Source of the DNA: Planctomycetota bacterium
GTDB taxonomy: Bacteria; Planctomycetota; Phycisphaerae; UBA1845
Assembly: GCA_030616775.1 (NCBI GenBank)
Contig: JAUWWQ010000036.1
Span: forward strand, 1-42,920
Reading direction: 5' to 3'
DNA: 42,920 nt
The notes beneath the pieces were generated by a model. The model was not told the origin of the DNA and did not search any database. It was given only the letters and a program-made list of their open reading frames with translations. This document shows positions 16,549 to 38,963 of the stretch, piece after piece. The translations under genes were made by a program, and so were the position numbers. Numbering within the stretch: position 1 is the first letter of the stretch; every line of letters starts with the position of its first letter.

Positions 16549-16662
16549 GTCCGCGGACTAAAGCCTGCGGCTCGGTTTTGACGGCGCGAAGTCCGCGCAG
16601 GCTAAAGCCTGCGGCTCGGTTTTGACGACGCGAAGTCCGCGCAGGCTAAAGCCTGCGGCTCA
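16549..16662. repeat. Tandem 44-bp palindromic repeats spanning the murF stop
   Basis: Units start at 16549, 16591 and 16635. Each contains GTCCGCGCAGGCTAAAGCCT followed by GCGGCTC, and the first two continue with a GGTTTTGACG-CGCGAA spacer. The first unit is 2 bases shorter, and the third stops after the palindrome. The core CGCAGGC-TTTA-GCCTGCG makes a 7-bp stem with a 4-base loop. The murF stop codon (16602-16604) is in the second unit, so the third unit and part of the second encode the MurF C-terminus. Confidence 0.85.
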
Positions 16663-18071
16663 GGGTCCCCGAACCGAGTCTGCAGGTCGCTGACTACGCG
16701 ATCCAGTTCCATAGCCCGCGATCCTTTGATCCATACCGTGTCACCGGGCGCTAAAATCTTCGTAAGAGCGTCACTGGCAGCTTCCGCATCCGCACATAAC
16801 ACCACACGAGTGCGTTGGTGACAACCGTCGATTAGCCGAAGAGCATCCGCCATTGCCGCCCCGACCGCTACCAGGATTTCGATACCGGCTTTAAGCACTG
16901 CGCCGACCGTTCGACGATGCAGCGATGCGCTTTGGGGCCCCAGCTCGAGCATGTCACCCATAACCAGAACACGCCGACCGGACGCACCTTGTCGCAACGT
17001 CTCCACCACTGCGGCCATACTGGCCGGATTGGCGTTGTACGCATCGTCGACCACGGTAAACCCGCCAATCTGCAAACGCCGCGTCCTCCCCTCCGGCGGC
17101 ATAAATGACCGGAGCCGCTCGACGATCACCTTGGCAGCCACGCCGAACCAACGGGCCACGGCGAATGCGCCTGCGGCGTTGACCGCGTGGTGCACACCGG
17201 GCACAGCTAGTTCAATGCGATAACGACCGTCAAGCTCGAACGTCGTGCTGCGGATGTCGCCGTGCACGCCGGTGACGCGCAGATCGGCGCTCGAATCGGT
17301 CCCGACGGTCGATAACCTTGCCCGTTGGGCGGCGGCCAAATGAGGTTTTATCTCCGGTCGGTCGACGTTGACAACGGCCAGACCGTCTGGCCGTACATGA
17401 CGCAGCAATGACACCTTCTCTGCCGCCACTCCGTCAATGCTGCCCAATCCCTCTAAATGCGCCTCCCCGATTGACGTAATCACGGCTAGGTTGGGCGATG
17501 CAATCGCCGACAGGGCTTCAACCTCGCCGGGTGCGTTGCTGCCGATCTCGACGATCAAGTAGCGGTCGTCCGGATCGGCCAACAGCAACGTCAGTGGCAC
17601 GCCAATGTGATTGTTGAAGCTTCCAGGCGCCGCCCGACCCTTGAATGAACCGGATAACACGTGATCGATCATGCACTTGGTGGTAGTTTTGCCGTTGCTG
17701 CCTGTAATGGCCACGACAACCGTCGCGTCCTGCACGACATGGCACCGATAATGCGCCGCCAATCGGGTGAGCGCTTCCACCGTATCCCCAACGACAAGAC
17801 AGGGCATTGCAGGCAGTGCATCGCCCACCTCGCCGGCACCACCCTCAACGAACCGATCACGATTACAGACACATGCGGCGGCGCCTTTGGAAGCCGCCTC
17901 AGCGATGAACCGATGGCCGTCAAACCGTTCGCCCACGATCGCGAAAAACAGGTCCCCCGGTTGCACCCGGCGCGAGTCCGTGGTCACCCGCTGGATCCGG
18001 ACGCCACCGCCGCCCAGCTTGTCTGCCGCGCCCACGGCTGATGCCACATCACTCAGCGCCATGGGGATCAT
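16602..18071 (-). CDS. murF: UDP-MurNAc-tripeptide--D-alanyl-D-alanine ligase
   Basis: The 489-residue Mur ligase adds D-Ala-D-Ala. It shows TTDSRRVQPGDLFFAI in the N-terminal domain, P-loop AITGSNGKTTTK (around 121-132), GSFNNHIGVPLTLL, EIGSNAPGEV, and VVDDAYNANPASM and VMGDMLELG in the last domain. ATG 18071 overlaps the murE stop as ATGA. The last 19 residues, EPQALACADFASSKPSRRL, are encoded wholly by the palindromic repeats downstream; the ancestral protein probably ended near GDP. This tail is unlike any MurF end I know. Confidence 0.96.
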   Translation of the reverse strand: MIPMALSDVASAVGAADKLGGGGVRIQRVTTDSRRVQPGDLFFAIVGERFDGHRFIAEAASKGAAACVCNRDRFVEGGAGEVGDALPAMPCLVVGDTVEALTRLAAHYRCHVVQDATVVVAITGSNGKTTTKCMIDHVLSGSFKGRAAPGSFNNHIGVPLTLLLADPDDRYLIVEIGSNAPGEVEALSAIASPNLAVITSIGEAHLEGLGSIDGVAAEKVSLLRHVRPDGLAVVNVDRPEIKPHLAAAQRARLSTVGTDSSADLRVTGVHGDIRSTTFELDGRYRIELAVPGVHHAVNAAGAFAVARWFGVAAKVIVERLRSFMPPEGRTRRLQIGGFTVVDDAYNANPASMAAVVETLRQGASGRRVLVMGDMLELGPQSASLHRRTVGAVLKAGIEILVAVGAAMADALRLIDGCHQRTRVVLCADAEAASDALTKILAPGDTVWIKGSRAMELDRVVSDLQTRFGDPEPQALACADFASSKPSRRL

Positions 18072-19603
18072 GCAACCTCCTCCGCCACAGCCGACGCGTT
18101 CAAACACTCCCGTGCCACCTCCATGTCATCAAACGGCAGCATCGTATCACCTACCAGTTGGTAAGTTTCATGACCCTTTCCGGCGATCAACACCGTATCG
18201 CCGGGCCGGGCTTCGCCGATCGCCGTTTGGATTGCGCGCCGCCGGTCGACCTGGACCTCGACTCGACAGGCCGGCGACGAGCCGAATCCGGGCAGAATGT
18301 CGTCAATGATGCGCTGGGGATCTTCCCTGCGCGGGTTATCGCTGGTCACGTATGCGACTTCCGCGAATCGACCTACCACCGCCGCCATCCGCGGGCGTTT
18401 GCTCCGATCGCGATCGCCTCCGCAGCCAAAGACGCAGATGAGCCTTTCGCGGGCAAGTGACCGAAGCACGGGTAGCACGCTTGACAGGGCCGCGTCCGTG
18501 TGGGCGTAGTCAACGAGAACCGAAAATGGGCAACCCTGCCGCTGGGCCCGCTGCAAGCGCCCGGGCACGCCGAGAACTCTCTCCAACCCGGCGACGATCG
18601 CGTCAGGATTTATGCCGAGGGCCACGGCGGTCGCTGCGGCTGCCAGCGCATTGAGCACGTTGTGGCGTCCCAAGAGCGAAAGGTGTACAGCCGTCTCGAA
18701 CGAGCGGCCTCTCAGGGCAATGTCGGTTCCGCTCACGGTCATGGCCCCAATGCGCGCGGTCATGTCAACGCCCGGCGAATCCAGACCGTATGACGTGACC
18801 GGAATATCCAGGCTCTTAATAAGCGACTCACCCATTGGATCGTCACGGTTGACAACCGCAACTGCGTCGGCGTCAAGCAGCTCAAACAGACGGCGCTTCG
18901 CCGCAGCATAGGATTCCATTGTCTCGTGATAATCGAGATGGTCGCCGGATAGATTCGTGAAAACACCAGCCTTGAGGAGAAGTCCATCGCAGCGCCGTTG
19001 ATCCAACGCGTGGGACGAAATCTCCACAACTCCGTAAGTTGCACCAGCATCACGGGCCGCAGCCAGGTGTCGACATAGAGCAAGTGGTCCCGGCGTCGTT
19101 AACGGCGCCGGCAGGCGCTCGTATACCAGGTCGTACTCGATGGTGCCGATCAGCGCCGTGGCTTGGCCTGCTGCCTGCAGGATCGAACGTAACAGCCAAG
19201 CGACGGTTGTCTTACCATTCGTACCCGTCACGCCGATCAATTGCAGACCATGTTCCGACTCACCCCGCAAGCCGTAGTAAGCAGAGGCCAGTCTCGCCAA
19301 GGCCTCGCGCGTATCGCGCACAAGTACGCGGGCGGTATCCCCGACGACTGGAACCTCACGCTCCACTACAGCCACGGTCGCTCGCCCAGCAGAAGCCGTC
19401 TCAACGAAATCGTGACCATCGCGTCTCGTCCCACGGATGGCCACGAAGCAATCCCCCGGCTCTACGCTTCGCGAGTCGTCGGTCAGCCGGGTGATTTTGA
19501 CATTCGGGACCACCGCACGCCCGGTTGGCGTGATACCGGCACGAGCGAACAATTCCGGCAACGTCCAGTGGCGATAGTCTGCGGATCGATCAGGCATACT
19601 CAT
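18068..19603 (-). CDS. murE: UDP-MurNAc-tripeptide synthetase (meso-diaminopimelate type)
   Basis: The 511-residue Mur ligase adds the third stem residue. Visible are DDSRSVEPGDCFVAI, P-loop VTGTNGKTT (125-133), EISSHALDQRR, TNLSGDHLDYH, VDYAHTDAAL, FGCGGDRDRSKRP and SDNPRREDP (421-429). The DNPR motif is the known marker of meso-diaminopimelate-specific MurE, which predicts the cell-wall type of this organism. Two ATGs (19603 and 19597) are possible; an AGGATG sequence lies just before the second. It is followed by murF with a 4-base overlap. Confidence 0.96.
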   Translation of the reverse strand: MSMPDRSADYRHWTLPELFARAGITPTGRAVVPNVKITRLTDDSRSVEPGDCFVAIRGTRRDGHDFVETASAGRATVAVVEREVPVVGDTARVLVRDTREALARLASAYYGLRGESEHGLQLIGVTGTNGKTTVAWLLRSILQAAGQATALIGTIEYDLVYERLPAPLTTPGPLALCRHLAAARDAGATYGVVEISSHALDQRRCDGLLLKAGVFTNLSGDHLDYHETMESYAAAKRRLFELLDADAVAVVNRDDPMGESLIKSLDIPVTSYGLDSPGVDMTARIGAMTVSGTDIALRGRSFETAVHLSLLGRHNVLNALAAAATAVALGINPDAIVAGLERVLGVPGRLQRAQRQGCPFSVLVDYAHTDAALSSVLPVLRSLARERLICVFGCGGDRDRSKRPRMAAVVGRFAEVAYVTSDNPRREDPQRIIDDILPGFGSSPACRVEVQVDRRRAIQTAIGEARPGDTVLIAGKGHETYQLVGDTMLPFDDMEVARECLNASAVAEEVA

Positions 19604-34187: not shown

Positions 34188-35104
34188 TCGCGCTGATCGT
34201 GCGCAGACTGTTGCTGGGCATCGTCACCGTCGCGTGCATCTATGCGCTGACTTTCGTAATGGTGATCTCGCTGCCCGGTAACCCATTCCAGCAGGGACAG
34301 CACAACATCCCACCGGAGGCGGAGATGGCCTTGCGGGCCCGGTACAGCATGGACAACAACTGGCTTTACTTCCAGGAGTTTCTCGCCGGGGCCGTCCGCC
34401 TGGATTTTGGGCCGACATTTACGTACAACGACTGGACGTGCAATCAGATCATCGCCTCGGCGCTGCCGGTATCCATCCTGCTCGGCTTTCTGGCAATCAT
34501 GATTGCAGTGCTGATCGGTGTGCCAGTCGGCGTACTCAGTGCGGTAAAACGAGGTAGCTGGTTCGACGTTTCCAGTCTCAGTCTTGTCCTATTGGGCATA
34601 TCGGTGCCGACGTTCGTCACCGGATCGGCTCTGCTGATCGTCTTCGCGGTCTGCCTGCAAGTCGCCCCCGTTGGCGGGTGGGGTACTCTTGGACATTTGC
34701 CGCTGCCGGCGCTGACGCTGTCGCTTCCGTTTATGGCCTATATCGCCCGACTTACGCGAACCGGGATGCTCGACGCCCTTGGTAGTGATTTCGTACGGAC
34801 CGCGCTGGCCAAAGGGGCGTCGCCACGGGCCGTTGTCTGGAAGCATGCATTGAAAGTCGCATTTCTGCCGGTGCTGAGCTTCCTGGGGCCGGCCGCCGCC
34901 CAGGCCATGACCGGATCTTTCGTGGTAGAGAAGGTTTTTGGGGTACCGGGTATCGGGCAACACTTCGTCAACGCGGCCCTAAACCGCGACGCCGGTCTGA
35001 TCATGAGTACCGTGCTGGTTTTCTCCACGCTTCTGGTGGCCTTCAATCTGATCGTGGATGTGCTTTATACGTGGATCGATCCGCGTATCTCCGAGTCGGT
35101 GTGA
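34184..35104 (+). CDS. Oligopeptide ABC transporter permease, OppB-like
   Basis: The 306-residue permease has six membrane segments. It begins MIALIVRRLLLGIVTVACIY, as OppB/DppB proteins do, and has GNPFQQG and the periplasmic LDFGPTF region (family: DFGxS). The cytosolic EAA loop is DFVRTALAKGASPRAVVWKHALK, and VEKVFGVPGIGQHFVNA follows, the typical OppB end motif. ATG overlaps the binding-protein stop by 4 bases (ATGA), and the next gene overlaps by 1 base. Confidence 0.93.
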   Translation: MIALIVRRLLLGIVTVACIYALTFVMVISLPGNPFQQGQHNIPPEAEMALRARYSMDNNWLYFQEFLAGAVRLDFGPTFTYNDWTCNQIIASALPVSILLGFLAIMIAVLIGVPVGVLSAVKRGSWFDVSSLSLVLLGISVPTFVTGSALLIVFAVCLQVAPVGGWGTLGHLPLPALTLSLPFMAYIARLTRTGMLDALGSDFVRTALAKGASPRAVVWKHALKVAFLPVLSFLGPAAAQAMTGSFVVEKVFGVPGIGQHFVNAALNRDAGLIMSTVLVFSTLLVAFNLIVDVLYTWIDPRISESV

Positions 35105-36198
35105 TGGGCATGCAGTCTGACAACGAGCGTACCGAGCCGCAGGCTTTAGCCCGCGCGGACGGATCGCGTCCCGGCGCGCCGGGAAAGCCTGCGGCTCGGT
35201 ATGGCACACCGTGGAGACGGTTCGCACATAACCGTTTAACCCAGGTGAGTGCGGCACTACTCACTGTTTTTGTAGTGACAAGCCTTGTCACTCTTCCGTT
35301 TTCACTGCGCTGGTACAACGTTCAGGAGCTGGACAAGGCCGTGCGACACACGCCGGCCTTCTCACCAGTGGTTTCCTACGGTCACTACGTGCAGCGAGTT
35401 ACAGGTCGCAGCGGGCCGGGCTTATCCGCGCAGGCTGAAGCCTGCGGCTCGGTTGCCCACCGGGCGTCGTCGTGGTTTGGCCACGACGATTTGGGGCGGA
35501 GCCTGTTTTACCGCGTCCTGCCGGGGTTCCTGGTCAGTCTGGGGATCGGACTTGCGGCAGCCGGTATCGCCGTCGTCATCGGAGCGACCTGGGGTGCGGT
35601 GGCGGCGCTAACGGGCGGTAGGGTTGACTTGCTCATGATGCGGATCGTGGATGTCATCTACGGTCTACCTTACATTCTGATGGTGATTCTGCTGAAGATC
35701 GCGCTGACCCGCCCACTGACGGCGCTATTTGCGGGTCACACCAAGTATGCCGACATGGTGATTTTGTTCCTCGCAATCGGCGGAGTGAGCTGGTTGACGA
35801 TGGCCCGGGTGATCCGAGGTCAGGTGCTGTCGCTGCGAAGTCAACCGTTTGTCGAAGCCGCACGCGCCTCGGGTGCCGGATCGGTGTACATCCTGCGCCA
35901 ACACGTGCTTCCTAACCTGGTCGGCCCGATCATAACCTACGCCGCCCTGGTGATTCCACAGGCCGTCTTGCAGGAATCCTTCCTGAGCTTCCTGGGAATC
36001 GGCGTTCAACAACCAACGCCCTCACTCGGCCGACTGGCGGCTGACGGTGTGGAGGCGGTTAACACCTTCGTGGGCTATTGGTGGTTGATCACATTCCCGT
36101 GCGCGATCCTGGTACTCACACTTATAGCATTGAACTTCATCGGCGACGGCCTGCGCGACGCATTCGACCCGAAATCGTCGGAGGCAATGTTGGTATAG
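35104..36198 (+). CDS. Oligopeptide ABC transporter permease, OppC-like, with repeat-derived segments
   Basis: The 364-residue permease has OppC-type organisation: TM1 at about 50-65 (VSAALLTVFVVTSLVTLP), a long extracytoplasmic loop with WFGHDDLGRSLFYRVLPG (family: FGTDDLGRD), then five helices with the EAA loop FVEAARASGAGSVYILRQHVLPN and ESFLSFLGIGVQQPTPSLG. Residues 10-33 and about 108-117 are encoded by palindromic repeats and stay in frame. The first lies in the cytosolic tail and the second in the extracytoplasmic loop, both places that tolerate insertion. ATP-binding subunits (OppD/F) are not next to it. Confidence 0.92.
   Translation: MGMQSDNERTEPQALARADGSRPGAPGKPAARYGTPWRRFAHNRLTQVSAALLTVFVVTSLVTLPFSLRWYNVQELDKAVRHTPAFSPVVSYGHYVQRVTGRSGPGLSAQAEACGSVAHRASSWFGHDDLGRSLFYRVLPGFLVSLGIGLAAAGIAVVIGATWGAVAALTGGRVDLLMMRIVDVIYGLPYILMVILLKIALTRPLTALFAGHTKYADMVILFLAIGGVSWLTMARVIRGQVLSLRSQPFVEAARASGAGSVYILRQHVLPNLVGPIITYAALVIPQAVLQESFLSFLGIGVQQPTPSLGRLAADGVEAVNTFVGYWWLITFPCAILVLTLIALNFIGDGLRDAFDPKSSEAMLV
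35131..35200. repeat. 70-bp palindromic repeat inserted in frame, oppC N-terminus
   Basis: ACCGAGCCGCAGGCTTT (35131-35147) and its exact reverse complement (35184-35200) are the ends. Between them, GCGCGGAC matches the 16.6-kb repeats, and the 16-bp palindrome at 35169-35184 matches 392-409. It encodes TEPQALARADGSRPGAPGKP, in the same reading frame as the repeat at the end of MurF (EPQALACAD). Confidence 0.85.
35425..35453. repeat. Same repeat core inserted in frame, oppC loop
   Basis: TCCGCGCAGGCTGAAGCCTG followed by CGGCTCGGT matches the 16.6-kb units in inverted sense, with one difference in the loop (TGAA for TAAA). That change matters: in this frame it gives AEA and not a stop-prone sequence. 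It encodes about SAQAEACGSV in the extracytoplasmic loop before the FGHDDLGRS motif. Confidence 0.8.
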
Positions 36199-38876: not shown

Positions 38877-38963
38877 GGAGCGGTGTCCGAGCGGCTTAAG
38901 GGACCGCACTGGAAATGCGGTGTGCGGGTAACCGCACCGAGGGTTCGAATCCCTCCCGCTCCG
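38877..38963 (+). tRNA. tRNA-Ser (anticodon GGA)
   Basis: The acceptor stem GGAGCGG (38877-38883) pairs with CCGCTCC (38956-38962), and 38963 is the discriminator G. The anticodon stem CCGCA/TGCGG encloses the loop CTGGAAA, giving anticodon GGA for UCC codons. A long variable arm (GTGCGGGTAACCGCAC) follows, as in class II tRNA-Ser, and the T arm is GAGGG-TTCGAAT-CCCTC. The CCA end is not encoded. Its 3' two-thirds overlap, in antisense, the integrase gene, so the tRNA is the likely attachment site of the element to its right. Confidence 0.95.

Follow-up and report, generated by a model that had tools for sequence, protein, structure and literature searches.

We found that the gene of an OppC-type ABC-transporter permease carries two in-frame insertions of a short palindromic repeat, very probably a REP with a CNGA tag that is mobilised by a class-3 TnpA/RAYT transposase; the same process would have nested RAYT genes within genes of related genomes, whose essential enzymes appear to bear a transposase domain. 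This explanation builds on repeat sequence and copy number, covariation in the repeat stem, linkage of repeat and transposase, presence or absence in orthologues, open frames and purifying selection. REPs are usually regarded as extragenic.

Two REP copies in the OppC gene

Features of the window (the whole stretch of 42,920 nt that was analysed) are collected in Table 1. The initial annotation had described in the OppC gene a 70-bp palindrome with perfect ends of 17 bp and a shorter copy of the same core in an extracytoplasmic loop. The longer element is present as described except that its perfect inverted arms measure 18 bp (35130–35147 and 35184–35201). Folded as single-stranded DNA, it reaches −35.6 kcal/mol (z = −7.3), a value matched by none of 200 shuffles. 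The shorter copy is a single inverted 28-bp unit; along 29 nt it is 93% complementary to the first arm. By this reading the N-terminal tail of OppC received an inverted pair of REPs, and the TM1–TM2 loop a single one.

Table 1. Repeat copies in the window and the genes that contain them
Feature	Position	Strand	Basis or remark
Third tandem REP core, downstream of the Mur ligase stop, 44-bp period	16554..16573	-	core search
REP core giving the Mur ligase its TAG stop	16598..16617	-	core search and translation
Mur ligase (MurF-type)	16602..18107	-	C-terminal tail REP-encoded; stop codon inside next REP
REP core in frame at the Mur ligase end, read EPQALACAD	16642..16661	-	core search and translation
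OppC-type ABC-transporter permease	35110..36198	+	PF00528 (BPD_transp_1), 2.4e-28; hosts two in-frame REP insertions
70-bp inverted-repeat (BIME-like) element, OppC N-terminal cytosolic tail	35131..35200	+	translated as TEPQALARADGSRPGAPGKPAAR
REP unit 1 in OppC, CCGAGCCGCAGGCTTTAGCCCGCGCGGA	35132..35159	+	28/28 vs genome consensus
Inverted partner arm of the 70-bp element, AAAGCCTGCGGCTCGGTA on the + strand	35184..35201	-	inverted-repeat comparison
REP unit 2, OppC extracytoplasmic loop before WFGHDDLGR	35425..35453	-	28/28 vs consensus; translated SAQAEACGS

The reading frame is indeed kept at both sites: one open frame runs through both REPs, and the gene probably starts at the ATG at 35110. 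No in-frame ATG, GTG or TTG was found between the N-terminal REP and the conserved PWRRF segment; this REP is therefore translated if the OppC tail is made. It is unlikely that the N-terminal REP is instead a hairpin in a 5′-untranslated leader, with a downstream start and only the loop copy coding. The start codon is a predicted one, and caution about N-terminal REPs is advised in the account of intragenic repeats by Di Nocera 2013 (PMC3733652); however, the next in-frame start is a GTG near 35245, use of which would remove the conserved WRRF..NR tail, and the upstream gene ends with its stop codon at 35104. In an AlphaFold model of OppC (10 sequences, mean pLDDT 68) residues 1–30 are predicted to be disordered (pLDDT < 50). 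The effect of the REPs on OppC function is presumably neutral.

Comparison with 30 aligned orthologues (named relatives are labelled Phycisphaerae or Planctomycetota) agrees with the view that a palindrome was inserted twice into this gene. The REP-encoded residues of the N-terminal tail are missing from the orthologues, and the tail is ∼21 codons longer than in the closest of them (genome G001). The loop REP is matched at 28 of 28 positions in G044 and at 24 of 28 in G016, in the same loop and in a different reading frame, with the G016 copy located about five codons farther from the conserved motif; the remaining orthologues do not have it. Since the loop varies in length, it does not allow a clean insertion of nine codons to be delineated. 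In a tree built from the conserved part of OppC (deep support is weak), G044 and G016 fall together and the source genome, G000, apart, which needs two changes; the starred branches of this tree force just one origin of the loop REP, and the case for independent origins draws on the differences in frame and position. We read the loop as a permissive site in which REP insertion may have been repeated.

The same alignment bears on the idea that the two segments are ancestral functional OppC sequence, repeat-like by chance, or else codon-biased low-complexity sequence. Both segments are open and in frame, and the loop region itself is found in all orthologues; yet the REP-encoded residues are not common to the orthologues, which already contradicts an ancestral origin, and both segments match at 28 of 28 DNA positions a repeat of ∼170 copies, with 0.00 matches expected by chance in the window. 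We regard this idea as hardly credible. The 20-mer REP core was matched five times in the window with up to three mismatches (0.00 expected).

Repeat family, host genes and transposase linkage

In the REP consensus, CCGAGCCGC[AG]GGCTT[CT]AGCC[CT]GCGCGGA, the tag is C[C/T]GAGC, the stem measures 7 bp and the loop reads TTYA. A search of the 4.45-Mb source genome gave about 171 matches (87 + 84 with up to two mismatches; 0 + 1 in the control), and 175 distinct units were read from about 110 stretches around repeat copies. Most of these units have the tetranucleotide C[C/T]GA 5′ of the hairpin, the CnGA foot. The sole variable pair of the stem, 9–20, is Watson–Crick in 150 of the 175 units versus 83 expected from independence (A–T in 70, G–C in 80), a pattern of compensatory change. 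Some REPs stand alone and others form tandem series or inverted pairs; part of them lie inside a longer composite with conserved flanks. In the composite an inverted REP pair lies within outer flanks ATACTACGACTATAG...GACTTATGAAACA that are nearly identical across many loci (L005, L006, L009, L014, L015, L019, L023, L024 and others), and it has the look of a REPIN or MITE that expanded recently. Across the family the distribution is patchy: 36 of 51 genomes have the REP, and copy numbers across the set range from 0 to about 260. The repeats of the window matched no Rfam family; RF00005 detected a tRNA gene at 38877–38963.

Four of the six frames of a REP are stop-free if the loop is TTTA, and five if it is TTCA; all five possible stop-free frames are in use (EPQALACAD, RAAGFSPRG, SRGLQPART, SAQAEACGS and PRGLKPAAR). 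Thus copies that land in the right phase in a permissive loop or terminus can be translated and survive. The Mur ligase of the window is such a case; its tail, which the initial annotation had matched in frame (EPQALA.AD) to the N-terminal OppC copy, reads one REP and ends at the TAG of the next.

To classify the genomic copies, a strict codon-score test was tried first and was too insensitive (it missed OppC itself); an ORF-based Markov model was used instead, in which the short upstream part of OppC still scores negative. By this model, 14 of 120 readable REP clusters lie in a single open frame whose coding signal reaches at least ∼8 log-units both before and after the cluster; about ten further clusters are plausibly intragenic. 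Pfam identified among the hosts AlaRS, GatB, Mfd, a UvrD-type helicase, UvrA, FabF, ThiDE, FtsJ, an ECF sigma factor, FTCD, xanthine dehydrogenase and an N-terminal extension of CTP synthase, besides others. Three sites in UvrA (1778 aa) and two in AlaRS (1202 aa) contain REPs. In alignments the REP segments of GatB, UvrA and AlaRS are insertions missing from most relatives, while the same sites bear REP peptides in some other genomes, including those of other genera. The UvrA locus (L221, G000:C36:95000-106000) contains this double-length UvrA and, 2 kb upstream, a separate UvrA-like ORF with a degenerate REP. The AlaRS insert of the source genome (L224) and L227 have the peptide HPSSFILHPSSF, which suggests that a second, tandem-type repeat may also be translated in frame.

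Frame-keeping insertions in loops or tails would be tolerated and so remain. That they are kept for useful peptides, an adaptive exaptation, is improbable: the same loops of OppC, GatB and AlaRS are used across several genera and nucleic-acid enzymes recur among the hosts, but at equivalent sites different frames yield unrelated peptides, and the sites are variable loops and termini such as the OppC tail with its predicted disorder.

Eight Y1_Tnp matches were found in the source genome, two of them of class-3 type (NHVH, W[TA]RHGSTRY and YVxExQ motifs). Neither of the two has the exact OppC-form REP beside it; they are flanked by cousin repeats (as at C88) or by none. The OppC-type REP occurs on the flanks of the class-3 RAYT gene in G017 and G011, and in G017 an inverted pair of exact copies brackets this gene; cousin REPs flank it in G000 and G012. 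A TnpAY1 gene with NHVH, W[TA] and Y----Q motifs is thus flanked by CnGA-type REPs; this signature, occurrence in Planctomycetes and hairpin flanks with a CnGA foot have been described for class 3 TnpAY1 (PMC6006769). Given the linkage in G017 and G011, we assign the OppC element to a class-3 RAYT system, as one of its REPs, and not to the Rickettsia palindromic elements (RPEs). It is very unlikely to be either an RPE-type repeat or a MITE that derives from a DDE transposon with no relation to RAYTs: its in-frame palindromic behaviour and the many copies in a longer composite with conserved outer flanks would fit such elements, but its tag is CNGA, not CGTC, and in relatives HUH Y1 transposase genes are bracketed by its copies. 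As REPs of the class-3 system, the non-autonomous hairpins would move via single-stranded DNA by the action of the TnpA/RAYT HUH transposase.

Transposase domains inside essential genes of relatives

Family and class searches found class-3 RAYT matches inside very long ORFs. Within the class Phycisphaerae, 38 RAYT domains lie in frame inside host genes: AlaRS (at least two sites), ValRS, PurH, LeuRS, a DUF1156 protein, an MmeI-type methylase and, N-terminally, MutS; one further domain comes from another family of the phylum, where a single-contig genome has it in a methyltransferase-like ORF. Loci with domains nested in ValRS, AlaRS, PurH, LeuRS and DNA-methylase ORFs include L363, L362, L365, L366, L369, L380, L354, L357 and L385. 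Pfam detected host domains together with Y1_Tnp in representative fusions. Host homology is found on both sides of the nested domain, which is mostly bracketed by repeat-type peptides. Among single loci, L364 (G135:C11) has two RAYT domains at different sites of one 1686-aa AlaRS ORF, and L360 (G045:C20) is a 1408-aa MutS ORF with an in-frame N-terminal extension containing a Y1_Tnp domain and many repeat-derived peptides.

Assembly chimerism was considered as a source of the nested genes and ruled out by their presence in many genomes, including single-contig G208 and G671; two-sided host homology and the single open frame also contradict it.

Where ValRS or AlaRS is the host, the fusion is the sole copy of its gene. 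Each of the 13 genomes tested has exactly one C-terminal domain of ValRS, and in 12 of them it is part of a fusion-length ORF (the G370 domain is on another contig; the G115 match contains one TGA). For AlaRS, every piece among the matches listed maps to the fused locus in G035, G033, G012, G008, G014 and G015. Most nested domains retain an NHVH-type motif, and pN/pS is 0.18–0.39 in eight pairs; by this measure they are under purifying selection. An ATG near the domain start is absent from 35 of the 38. The RAYT tree groups by host gene (16 changes versus 31.9 in shuffles), which fits a long residence with several changes of host. An automatic search detected the CNGA tag beside nested RAYTs in three of seven loci tried; at the remaining loci the flanking peptides SRDREGA/PLPHGRGS and EPRASARA/ARAEARGS point to likely repeats as well. 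A second repeat subfamily, about CCGAGCCGCG[AC]CCGTAAGGAAGCGG and read SRDREGA or PLPHGRGS, flanks AlaRS-nested RAYTs at L365, L369, L371 and L374.

The process proposed for OppC may have placed a RAYT gene with its flanking REP-type repeats in frame inside these essential genes, and the nested RAYT would then be translated as part of the host enzyme. We lean towards the view that the RAYT–REP units of Phycisphaerae are translated selfish elements: startless HUH transposases in variable loops of single-copy AlaRS, ValRS, PurH and LeuRS, produced solely as a domain within the host protein, with the REPs of OppC and of dozens of further genes as their non-autonomous offspring. If so, nested RAYTs would gain expression and protection from deletion, as inteins do but without splicing; any such benefit of the insertions, to element or host, we infer.

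Transposases kept inside essential enzymes under purifying selection would be a novel means for a mobile element to survive, and the synthetase–transposase fusions make the question of REP/RAYT persistence and movement directly testable. More generally, a RAYT-linked repeat is here a routine source of new protein segments, recurring in the same loops across genera, so an unusual insert in a planctomycete protein may represent mobile DNA, a caution for annotation.

Comparison with known systems

The OppC element resembles the CnGA-footed REPs of class 3 TnpAY1 (PMC6006769), with which it shares the 5′ CNGA foot, the hairpin, high copy number, occurrence in Planctomycetes and flanking of Y----Q transposases. 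The class-3 section of that paper describes neither in-frame intragenic copies nor transposases nested in essential ORFs, both of which are seen here.

The initial annotation had supposed that such behaviour may be undescribed in this lineage. For the CNGA REP class in these genomes this stands, but work on Opitutus, a member of another PVC phylum, had reported in-frame intragenic REPs in 2013, two insertions in the same gene among them (Di Nocera 2013, PMC3733652), so OppC is a further case of a known phenomenon. Those GTAG/CGTC REPs are likewise short hairpins in frame in ORFs; several are in uvrA, helicase and tRNA-synthetase genes, and a REP may supply the TAG stop. They differ in tag (here C[C/T]GAGC, not the GTAG or CGTC of those super-families) and in transposase class, and the 2013 account of intragenic copies has no transposase gene inside a host ORF. 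The nesting of transposases in essential enzymes is an unexpected extension, for which no earlier report (of a transposase inside aminoacyl-tRNA synthetases, or of nested RAYTs) was found in the open-access literature.

Nested RAYTs resemble inteins with homing endonucleases in being a mobile-element enzyme domain placed in frame in conserved essential enzymes. They differ in that Pfam found no intein/Hint splicing domain in the inserts and the enzyme is a HUH transposase, not a homing nuclease; protein splicing is unsupported.

Likeness to Rickettsia palindromic elements, also proposed initially, extends to behaviour, since both are palindromic repeats in frame in many proteins. It does not extend to kinship: RPE-4 and RPE-6 are grouped with CGTC-type repeats (PMC3733652), and neither the RPE sequence family nor that tag was found here, where the lineage is another and the repeat has a CNGA tag and is linked to class-3 RAYTs. 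Finally, the 70-bp OppC element has the layout of REPIN/BIME elements (PMC3116915, PMC2817692), two inverted REPs with a spacer; those elements are known mainly from extragenic sites, whereas the OppC element is read as protein.
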